Virus record (IMG/VR): IMGVR_UViG_3300046011_006593
Span: 1 to 28,552 of that record
DNA length: 28,552 bases
Source of the DNA: a virus
Reading direction: 5' to 3' (one strand)
Below, piece after piece: positions 23,607-26,610 of this stretch. The translations under genes and the position numbers were made by a program. Under the pieces are notes generated by a model that made no database searches, was not told where the DNA came from, and saw only the letters and a program-made list of their open reading frames with translations. Each line of letters begins with the position of its first letter. Within the stretch, counting starts at the first letter, position 1.

Positions 23607-26105
23607 TTAATCAAATAAACTTGCCAGGGATGCTTGTGGTTTTGCACTCCATCCCATACCTTCAATGATTGCATTAAGTGGTTCAATAAATGACTTCTCG
23701 AACATTGTATTATAGTCAACAAATTTTGTCAATCCCAATTCATCAGGCAACTGTCCAATGAAGGCAATGCAGTTCTCTGAGATAGGATTGGGTTCAACAA
23801 GGTATAGGAACTTGATCTTCTCGCCTTCTTGGATTAGTTCAAATTTCTTTTCAAGATTTTTCTTTTTAACATGAAAGTTATACAACAAACTTCCTCGCAC
23901 ATGCATCGGTGTTGCACTTTTGTAAATGTTGGCATTGTCTGAATATTTTGCCAAACCCTTTACACCTCGAGGAAAGGCAATCTCATGTGGTTTAAGAGTT
24001 TTGAATTTACTTTCTGTGTCATCGATGAATTTGTGTAGCTCCCCCTCTGTTGATGTGAGGGCAAGACGAACTGCTTCGCGCAAGGATTCACGAACAGGTT
24101 CTGGTGTTGATGACTTGACAATCTCTAATCCCATTACTTTTAGTTTAGGATCTTTATATCGCACACCTTCATTATCATAAACGTTTAGCGCATACCTTTT
24201 CTTAGCAACCCAGATCCCGCGGTCACTGATTGCCTCGCGCTTGAATATAATTTTCCTTTGGAATGCGTTTGTATAATCACCGATACCATCACATGCTTTG
24301 TTAATAACTTTAACAATCTTGTCTTCGCAAATTTTATCGAGGATCTCAATGATCTTGTCCTTCGGTTGCCCAGCATAGAATTTCCTTACAAGAGGATCAA
24401 GAGTAATATAACAGCTATCAGTGTCACTATAGAATGCATAATCAAACTTCTCAGTCCCACAAATTTTATTTAAGTATTCATTCAATGCAATTCCAACTCG
24501 TTGAATGATGTATTGTCCTGTAATTGTAATACCTTCAGCAATTCGATCATCGTAAAACCTAAAATATTCGTTACCCCATGCACCGAACAATGAATTCAAC
24601 TGAATCTTTCTTGCCATCTGAAAGTTGTTGAACTTAGAAATTTCTTTCTGATACTTTTTGTCTTTTGTTTCTTCGTATTGCTTTTGTGCTGCAATCATCA
24701 ACTTCTTATATCGTTGACGGTCATCAAATAACTTTTGAACGATCTCAGGAAACATGCCTTGACGATCTCGTTTGTAAAAGTATCCATTTGCTGCCATTGT
24801 TAGATCAACATCAACTGTCTCGTTTGAAATATCGAAAACATGATTGACCATACCTTCAATGGTTGTGTCATATGAATGGTTGGGAATCATTGTCTCAGGA
24901 GACATGTTGTATTGCATAATGATTGAAGGATACAGTGAAGTTGCATCAAAAGACACAACCCAATCATATTTGCCCGGGACAGGTTCTTTGACAAAGGCGC
25001 CAATGATTTGTCTGCCGCGGCGCGATTCGTCTCGTTGATGAACGATAACTTTCTTGTTCCACAAGTGATTGTAAATGATACAATCCCAAGTACGAACAGC
25101 CGAAAATACATCTGCATAGTTACACTTTGCATCATACGCCATCGTAATGATGAGTTCAACTAGTCGCATCTTATCTTCAAGCTGGTCGACCAGTTCGGTA
25201 TCGATTACGTTGTAATCAACAAACATTTGCCAGTCATTTGTGTAGAACTCTCGAAACGTATCGTAAGGATTCTCAAGTTTCTGTTTGCCTAGTTCAACCT
25301 TTGCGATATAGTCGAGTTTGTAGGACTCTTGTGCTGAATAGGTAAATTTTTTATACAAATCAATGTAATCAAGAATAGCAACACCAAGAATATCAAACGC
25401 AAGGATTTCCTTTCCTGCCCTCTCAAAGGATTTGTCATTAATCACATTCCATGGTGATAGACGGCGTGTCATCTCAACACCAAGGACCTTTTCCATTCGA
25501 CGAATAAGATAAGGAACGTCAAAGGTATCGATATTCCAACCCGTCAAAATATTTGGGTAATCCTTTTGCCAAAATAGCAAAAACTTACTCAATAGATCAT
25601 ACTCATCCTTGCACTTTGCATAGATGTGGTTGGGTTTGTTGCCCACATAATCACCACATCCGAATGTTATGATCTCTTTAGTGACTGAGTTTTGTATACT
25701 TATGAGAAGAACAGATTCGATGGGATTGTTTACATTCGGGAATCCGTGTTCTGAAGATGTCTCAATGTCGATTGAGTAGATACGAATATTGGAAATATCA
25801 AACTGTATTTCACCTGAGTAGTTTTCGGTGATATACTGATAGGCAAAATTCTTGTTGCCAAAAATCTCAAAATTTTCTACATCGCTGTATTTGCTAATGA
25901 ATTCTTTTGCGTCATTGATATCCGTGAACTGAATAGGTTCAAGGTTGTCACCAAAGACAGAAAGATATTCATCGTGCGATTTCTTTGACTTGACAAATAG
26001 TTTTGGTGCAAAAGGAATCTTTGCCTGTGTATGATACCCGTTATCTACACCTCGAAACAGAATACGATTACCATATTGAATAACACTTGTGTAGAATTTA
26101 GACAT
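23607..26105 (-). CDS. 43: Family B DNA polymerase with 3'-5' exonuclease, T4 gp43-like
   Basis: An 832-residue protein (T4 gp43 is 898). Exonuclease motifs: Exo I D113-I-E115, Exo II N191-IDTF-D196, Exo III Y298-NVI-D302. Polymerase motif A is D387-ATSLYPS, motif B is in ARKIQLNSLFGAWGN, and motif C is YSDTDS, with KKRYALNVYD after it. All catalytic acids are intact, so the enzyme should be active and proofreading. The SD AAGGA begins 4 bases after the CCA end of the CAU tRNA, so the mRNA is probably released by tRNA 3' processing. Confidence 0.97.
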   Translation of the reverse strand: MSKFYTSVIQYGNRILFRGVDNGYHTQAKIPFAPKLFVKSKKSHDEYLSVFGDNLEPIQFTDINDAKEFISKYSDVENFEIFGNKNFAYQYITENYSGEIQFDISNIRIYSIDIETSSEHGFPNVNNPIESVLLISIQNSVTKEIITFGCGDYVGNKPNHIYAKCKDEYDLLSKFLLFWQKDYPNILTGWNIDTFDVPYLIRRMEKVLGVEMTRRLSPWNVINDKSFERAGKEILAFDILGVAILDYIDLYKKFTYSAQESYKLDYIAKVELGKQKLENPYDTFREFYTNDWQMFVDYNVIDTELVDQLEDKMRLVELIITMAYDAKCNYADVFSAVRTWDCIIYNHLWNKKVIVHQRDESRRGRQIIGAFVKEPVPGKYDWVVSFDATSLYPSIIMQYNMSPETMIPNHSYDTTIEGMVNHVFDISNETVDVDLTMAANGYFYKRDRQGMFPEIVQKLFDDRQRYKKLMIAAQKQYEETKDKKYQKEISKFNNFQMARKIQLNSLFGAWGNEYFRFYDDRIAEGITITGQYIIQRVGIALNEYLNKICGTEKFDYAFYSDTDSCYITLDPLVRKFYAGQPKDKIIEILDKICEDKIVKVINKACDGIGDYTNAFQRKIIFKREAISDRGIWVAKKRYALNVYDNEGVRYKDPKLKVMGLEIVKSSTPEPVRESLREAVRLALTSTEGELHKFIDDTESKFKTLKPHEIAFPRGVKGLAKYSDNANIYKSATPMHVRGSLLYNFHVKKKNLEKKFELIQEGEKIKFLYLVEPNPISENCIAFIGQLPDELGLTKFVDYNTMFEKSFIEPLNAIIEGMGWSAKPQASLASLFD

Positions 26106-26118
26106 AGTATCCTTTTTA

Positions 26119-26195
26119 TGGTAGGCGCGGTTGGGTTCGAACCAACGACCAATGGATTATGAGTCCACTGCTCTGACCGACTGAGCTACACGCCC
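26119..26195 (-). tRNA. tRNA with CAU anticodon (elongator Met or Ile2)
   Basis: A 77-nt cloverleaf with encoded CCA. The acceptor GGGCGTG/CGCGCCT has a G-U first pair. The D arm is GCTC...GAGC, the anticodon stem GTGGA/TCCAT with loop CTCATAA, and the T arm GTTGG-TTCGAAC-CCAAC. It lacks the initiator C1:A72 mismatch and GGG:CCC stem. The variable/T region resembles Ile2 tRNAs, in which C34 becomes lysidine to read AUA, useful for an AT-rich phage. Met versus Ile2 cannot be settled by eye. Confidence 0.93.
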
Positions 26196-26253
26196 TTAAC
26201 TTGGTGCCAGTGACCGGACTCGAACCGGTACGCATTTGTGTGCGGCGGATTTT

Positions 26254-26468
26254 CTTACCACTATAGTTTTCACTACCTGCTCACGCAGTTTGTGGTCTGG
26301 ACTATACCTTCACCATTGCTCTCACTTATTGCTCTCACTTTAGGTGCCTGCCGTCTAGTCTCTACACCTTCCCTTTCGGGCTTGGCTCGGTATTAGCATT
26401 TTACAGCTTTCACCGAATTTGACAGGTTCTACTTCTACCGTTTCCAGTAGAGCACTCAAATTGTCTAT
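26254..26468 (-). ncRNA. Group I intron (IC3-like) in tRNA-Leu(UAA)
   Basis: A 215-nt intron. P1 is exon ACUU with guide GAGU (26457-26454), giving the U-G pair at the 5' splice site. P3 is CUGUC/GACGG and P4 is UCGGU/ACCGA, followed by GAGCCAAGCCC and the P6 hairpin CCC-GAAA-GGG. The P7 strands are in GTGTAGAGACTAGACGG (26367-26351) and AAGGTATAGTCC. P8 is CACC/GGUG. P9 is ACCAC/GUGGU with two tetraloop hairpins (GUGA, GAAA), and the terminal omega G is at 26254. The conserved blocks and splice position match cyanobacterial and plastid tRNA-Leu(UAA) introns. There is no room for a homing endonuclease. Self-splicing is expected but not shown. Confidence 0.93.
26315..26340. repeat. Exact 13-bp tandem duplication in the intron P8 loop
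   Basis: ATTGCTCTCACTT occurs twice head to tail (26315-26327 and 26328-26340). It lies between the two P8 strands CACC and GGUG. Confidence 0.95.
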
Positions 26469-26481
26469 AAGTCCGCTGGGT

Positions 26482-26610
26482 CTACCTATTCCCCCACACT
26501 GGCAAATCACGTAATACACCAATTATAATACCTGCCGCAGGAATTAACAACAAAGAAAGTGCAAAGAAAAAACTTAATGTGAGTAGCAGGTATATAATCT
26601 TTTTTATCAT
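26482..26610 (-). CDS. Possible 42-aa membrane peptide overlapping tRNA-Leu
   Basis: The frame codes for MIKKIIYLLLTLSFFFALSL and further hydrophobic residues to about 33, then a short polar tail that runs 22 bases into the tRNA-Leu 5' exon. The composition is that of a real membrane segment with a lysine anchor. There is no clear SD, and the tRNA promoter lies inside it. Coding is uncertain; the stretch may only carry the tRNA promoter. Confidence 0.35.
   Translation of the reverse strand: MIKKIIYLLLTLSFFFALSLLLIPAAGIIIGVLRDLPVWGNR
26522..26550 (-). promoter_or_regulatory. Probable sigma-70 promoter for tRNAs and polymerase
   Basis: TTGTTA (26550-26545), 17 bases, TATAAT (26527-26522). The -10 is perfect and the -35 matches 4 of 6. 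The predicted start is about 12 bases before the tRNA-Leu 5' end. The spacer contains the palindrome CCTGCGGCAGG. Confidence 0.6.

Follow-up and report, generated by a model that had tools for sequence, protein, structure and literature searches.

A phage tRNA-Leu(UAA) gene split between anticodon bases 34 and 35 by a group I intron of the bacterial tRNA-Leu(UAA) type

We examined a linear IMG/VR virus record of 28,552 nt (hereafter the window), whose minus strand carries an intron-bearing tRNA gene. In intron mode, ARAGORN read this gene as a tRNA-Leu(UAA) in which a 215-nt intron separates anticodon bases 34 and 35 (U34/A35), the site of the bacterial tRNA-Leu(UAA) intron, and the original prediction of a 215-nt split at this point proved exact to the base (26254–26468). 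Without intron mode, the program reported only the neighbouring tRNA-Met and missed the split tRNA-Leu. The features of the locus are as follows.

26202–26503, minus strand: class II tRNA-Leu(UAA) gene in two exons, with the CCA end encoded (called by ARAGORN -i as tRNA-Leu(taa) c[26202,26503])
26469–26503, minus strand: 5′ exon, 35 nt, ending GCGGACTT, last base U34
26254–26468, minus strand: group I intron, 215 nt, without an endonuclease ORF (RF00028 match and ARAGORN boundaries)
26202–26253, minus strand: 3′ exon, 52 nt, with AAAATCC at its start and CCA at its end
26454–26457, minus strand: internal guide GAGU, which pairs with ACUU of the 5′ exon (P1), with splice-site U34 opposite a G
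26421–26426, minus strand: 5′ strand of P3, CCUGUC; partner GGCAGG at 26347–26352
26356–26360, minus strand: 5′ strand of P7, GACUA; partner UAGUC at 26300–26304; crosses P3
26315–26339, minus strand: loop 8, containing a ~13-nt tandem duplication (AGTGAGAGCAATA), read from the sequence
26254, minus strand: omega G, the intron's terminal G, invariant in the intron alignment (A1)
26119–26195, minus strand: tRNA-Met(CAU), adjoining the tRNA-Leu gene (ARAGORN; RF00005, 71.7 bits)
23607–26105, minus strand: T4-like family B DNA polymerase (gp43), downstream (phrog_262, 1038 bits)

Once joined, the exons form a canonical class II tRNA-Leu(UAA) with an encoded CCA (ARAGORN), in agreement with the stem pairing originally described for the gene after intron removal. 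UUA makes up 21% of the leucine codons counted in the main ORFs of the window. A separate IMG/VR record (L204) contains an identical intron next to genes whose proteins are 99.8–100% identical to those of the window, demonstrating that the intron is not an assembly artefact. The carrier is a phage, with genes for ribonucleotide reductase (RNR), ThyX, primase, helicase, UvsX, gp43, and a virion protein. As evidence on the host, its protein sequences would point both ways: gp43 (~50% identical) and gp41 (66%) are nearest to cyanophage proteins, but NrdA is nearest to those of a human-gut phage and an Alcaligenes phage (61–62%) rather than of cyanophages. The suggestion that the locus may point to a cyanobacterial host thus finds a mixed answer in these proteins and draws no support from the intron.

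A covariance search with the Rfam Intron_gpI model (RF00028), the check proposed in the original prediction, matched positions 26282–26478 of the minus strand at 65.2 bits against a gathering cut-off of 50 (E = 1.2e-14; cmscan). After writing out helices P1–P9.1, with P3 and P7 crossing, we tallied pairing across an alignment of 85 related introns. Standard pairs filled 96.8% of cells, compared to 76.5% in shuffled controls and 26–42% when one partner was slid by 1–3 columns; the alignment was not fitted to the fold, but the fold itself came from reading the window sequence, an advantage for it over the slid controls. Two-sided changes occurred at 38 of the 53 pairs. P3 was paired in 99.2% of cells, with two-sided changes in all 6 pairs, and P7 in 99.8%, with an A-U to U-A swap in 27 sequences; the splice-site U-G pair was present in 84 of the 85 relatives. 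Within the phage-only clade described below, 98.5% of cells were paired and 31 of the 53 pairs showed two-sided changes, indicating that the fold has been maintained since these copies diverged.

The intron thus has the P3–P9 core with crossing P3 and P7, the P1 U-G pair, and the terminal G of a group I intron, and the helices named at the outset stood up on the 85-intron alignment, as did the U-G pair and the terminal G; pairing of P2, P5, and P9.0, absent from the first reading, is also present. The precursor folded better than 100 of 100 shuffled sequences (z = −4.5). No other intron of alignment A1 showed the loop 8 duplication, which explains part of the length of the window intron. Placement in subgroup IC3 rests on kinship and the literature, the covariance model used being the single Rfam Intron_gpI. 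These results establish that a phage tRNA-Leu gene is split by a well-formed group I intron of the bacterial tRNA-Leu(UAA) type.

From its fold and covariation, we predict that this ribozyme is capable of guanosine-initiated self-splicing. The phage would transcribe tRNA-Leu with the intron in place at U34/A35, and the RNA would fold. In the infected cell, exogenous guanosine bound in P7 would attack just after U34, which the P1 U-G pair holds in position, and the freed 5′ exon would attack after the terminal G, joining the exons into a normal tRNA-Leu(UAA) that would read UUA codons. Carriage of the intron may benefit the phage or be neutral to it.

To find relatives, we combined a scan of IMG/VR for a 3′ splice-site pattern with GenBank. 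At least 89 viral loci, including the window, parse as tRNA-Leu(UAA) with an intron at U34/A35, and further viral loci parse under ambiguous tRNA labels; most hits of a scan of viral contigs with a three-part pattern were chance matches. Phages in GenBank with the intron (BLAST) include Agrobacterium phage Atu_ph07, LR756501, and Lak phages, the last read by eye. The premise that such introns are rare in phage tRNA genes therefore does not hold. Using a similar pattern in bacterial genomes, we obtained at least 101 loci that parse as tRNA-Leu(UAA) with a related intron, in at least eight non-cyanobacterial phyla; carriers include Pseudomonadota, Bacteroidota, Acidobacteriota, Planctomycetota, Bacillota, Chloroflexota, Bdellovibrionota, Mycoplasmatota, and others. 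The phage and bacterial sets were collected with different 3′ patterns, and the bacterial set consists of the first 120 matches listed; these include no cyanobacterium, as the different cyanobacterial 3′ sequence would lead one to expect. For three loci (L002–L004), cmscan found nothing above threshold and ARAGORN found a split tRNA in two, showing that a single Rfam model misses relatives.

The closest known counterparts are chromosomal introns of non-cyanobacterial bacteria, such as Sediminibacterium (L307) and the group I introns known from tRNA-Leu-TAA of Beggiatoa and Thiomargarita (PMC4853749). They interrupt the same tRNA, those of the Sediminibacterium kind share the U34/A35 site and the helices, and the best bacterial BLAST match among the matches listed is 76% identical to the window intron; they differ in lying on chromosomes, outside the phage clade, and in being typically longer (median 225 versus 202 nt). 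Among jumbo phages, Atu_ph07 and LR756501 (a 735-kb phage) have a complete intron at the same site (ARAGORN), LR756511 (L424, a 595-kb phage) has at 368–1154 an unannotated tRNA-Leu(UAA) with a 700-nt intron at that site (ARAGORN), and Prevotella Lak phages have a tRNA-Leu(UAA) intron there, read by eye; in the stretches of these jumbo phage records that we read, the intron is not annotated as such. Like the introns of phage protein genes (T4 td, nrdB, and nrdD; DNA polymerase, terminase, and capsid genes), the window intron is a phage group I ribozyme of a type often associated with homing endonucleases, but those introns lie in coding genes, whereas this one lies in a tRNA gene. According to the review by Hausner, Hafez and Edgell (2014), the phage introns known at the time were all in protein genes (PMC3984707), and we found no report in the open literature of group I introns in phage tRNA-Leu.

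Several related sequences lie outside this pattern. Seventeen distinct phage copies (L133, L138, L146, L151, L169, L178, L181, L185, L188, L195, L196, L207, L212, L221, L224, L228, and L239) and none of the bacterial copies split a tRNA with a UAA anticodon that lacks a long variable arm and is a doubtful leucine tRNA. In the putative cyanophage Microcoleus phage My-WqHQDG (L422, OR578706), a 213-nt intron partially matching the tRNA-Leu(UAA) intron family interrupts a tRNA-Arg(CCU) at 813–1098, and one GenBank phage record has a tRNA-Arg annotation long enough for an intron. Stretches resembling the window intron separate two pieces of a capsid gene in Pelagibacter phage HTVC120P (L418, 1501–1655) and in KT997847 (L419, 1501–1578), and two pieces of a ribonucleotide reductase gene in Rhizobium phage RHph_N3_13 (L420, 1501–1590), suggesting that the tRNA-Leu intron family may enter protein genes too. 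In Pelagibacter phage HTVC105P (L421, 1001–1031), 31 nt beside an integrase gene exactly match the 5′ exon of a phage tRNA-Leu followed by AAA; this is probably an attachment-site-like piece rather than a tRNA.

By BLAST, the intron closest to that of the window is from a phage (L126, 82.8%), the best bacterial introns among the matches listed reach 75.8%, and 20 phage introns score above the best of these; the kinship with tRNA-Leu(UAA) introns thus seen, at up to 83% in phages and 76% in bacteria, agrees with the trees. In a maximum-likelihood tree, the window falls in a phage-only clade of 42 rows with UFBoot/SH-aLRT support of 99/98. When 45 bacterial rows were added, support was 92/75 for the 42-row clade and 95/90 for 39 rows, and with truncated cores of long introns it weakened to 89/59 and 70/85. 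In none of these three trees did a sampled bacterium, among the matches listed, fall inside the clade; an unsampled bacterial donor within it is possible. The phage copies as a whole do not form one clade, although a single clade is not firmly rejected (p = 0.06). The phage-only clade spans the T4-like window, Atu_ph07 (490 kb), and T7-like contigs with the tRNA beside DNA polymerase A; besides L204, only three other contigs of the clade have genes in common with the window. We considered whether the 14-member T7-like group might be non-phage and rejected this on account of its phage genes and adjoining DNA polymerase A.

KT997847 (Autographiviridae, T7-like) has an uninterrupted tRNA-Leu(UAA) beside DNA polymerase A, syntenic with the split gene of related contigs, and thus provides an empty site. 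Introns of 600–780 nt in phages and bacteria contain HNH-type ORFs that are 35–56% identical between phage and bacterial copies, and three of the four long-intron proteins tested matched Pfam HNH families. The 215-nt window intron, which lies on a fragmentary 28.5-kb contig, has no homing endonuclease ORF, and its own spread would need help in trans or recombination. Together with the distribution among phages, the empty site and the HNH genes of relatives are signs of horizontal spread, in contrast to the mostly vertical inheritance that had been assumed for this intron. The idea that a phage copy could be a vehicle for it fared better, as phages look like carriers, with at least 89 viral loci and a phage-only clade.

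The best explanation of these results, which we regard as very probable, is that the window intron, a group I ribozyme that lacks an ORF and belongs to the bacterial tRNA-Leu(UAA) type, was acquired by a T4-like phage from a pool of tRNA-Leu(UAA) introns circulating mainly among phages. It would have entered the conserved anticodon arm by homing or recombination, perhaps helped by HNH endonucleases of the kind still encoded in some copies. A broader proposal, in which our confidence falls somewhat short of even, is that phages hold their own mobile tRNA-Leu(UAA) intron lineage, which would move among jumbo, T4-like, and T7-like phages and, by means of HNH endonucleases, into and out of bacterial chromosomes; phages would then be main vectors of the intron, and some copies would have entered UAA tRNAs without a long variable arm.

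It is rather unlikely, but deserves serious weight, that the phage instead captured the tRNA-Leu gene and intron whole from its own bacterial host, the clade reflecting one unsampled host lineage or several captures. In its favour, tRNA-Leu(UAA) genes with related introns occur in bacteria of many phyla, and phages outside the 42-row clade mix with Bacteroidota and others in the trees. In samples of ~1,180 bacterial genomes, none known to be cyanobacterial, matches were present in 24 of 395 Bacteroidota (6%), 37 of 398 Pseudomonadota, and 40 of 385 Alphaproteobacteria genomes (9–10%), in tRNA-Leu(UAA), tRNA-Leu(CAA), tRNA-Arg, and other tRNAs by ARAGORN label. Host capture fits poorly, however, with a 42-row clade that contains no sampled bacterium among the matches listed, with clade carriers that are largely unrelated phages with few genes in common, and with a phage locus at which the tRNA is constant and the intron present or absent.

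Far less probable is the original proposal of a true cyanobacterial or plastid-lineage intron in a cyanophage. The window intron shares its tRNA, insertion site, and kind of catalytic core with the cyanobacterial/plastid (IC3) intron, and the T4-like gp43 and gp41 are nearest to cyanophages. The label 'cyanobacterial-type', however, draws no support from the blocks cited in its favour, which non-cyanobacterial bacterial introns also have: of 108 such introns, 50 contain GAGCCAAGCC and 32 contain GGTGTAGAGACTAGACGG. Our comparison used a single sequence, taken to be the Anabaena tRNA-Leu(UAA) gene, which ARAGORN reads as tRNA-Leu(UAA) with a 247-nt intron. Its core has a different block, present in 0 of the 189 introns compared, and its P7/P9.0 sequences differ from those of the window; identity to the window intron, scaled to the longer sequence, was 58% for this sequence compared to 78–82% for the best Bacteroidota and phage introns. 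Among 2.9 million viral contigs, none matched a 3′ signature of the cyanobacterial type, the presumed Anabaena pre-tRNA had no match in the phage records searched, NrdA is nearest to non-cyanophages, and tRNA-Leu(UAA) is uninterrupted in the T4-like cyanophage S-SSM7. The intron trees placed the window in the phage-only clade, and an AU test did not reject its grouping with Anabaena (p = 0.275), with Anabaena represented by this one sequence on one long branch that carries little information.

That the intron is a dead relic that no longer splices and the tRNA a pseudogene is very unlikely: the Rfam score is moderate (65 bits), but the exons are fully canonical with CCA, the helices are all intact, invariant residues are kept, and covariation supports the structure within the phage clade.

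Long a model of vertical inheritance, the tRNA-Leu(UAA) intron is the textbook case of an ancient intron. The large phage-borne set of introns at the same site offers a possible route for its horizontal spread. One phage locus has alleles with and without the intron, which suits tests of homing, and tRNA-Leu(UAA) genes can be overlooked when phage tRNAs are counted without intron mode.
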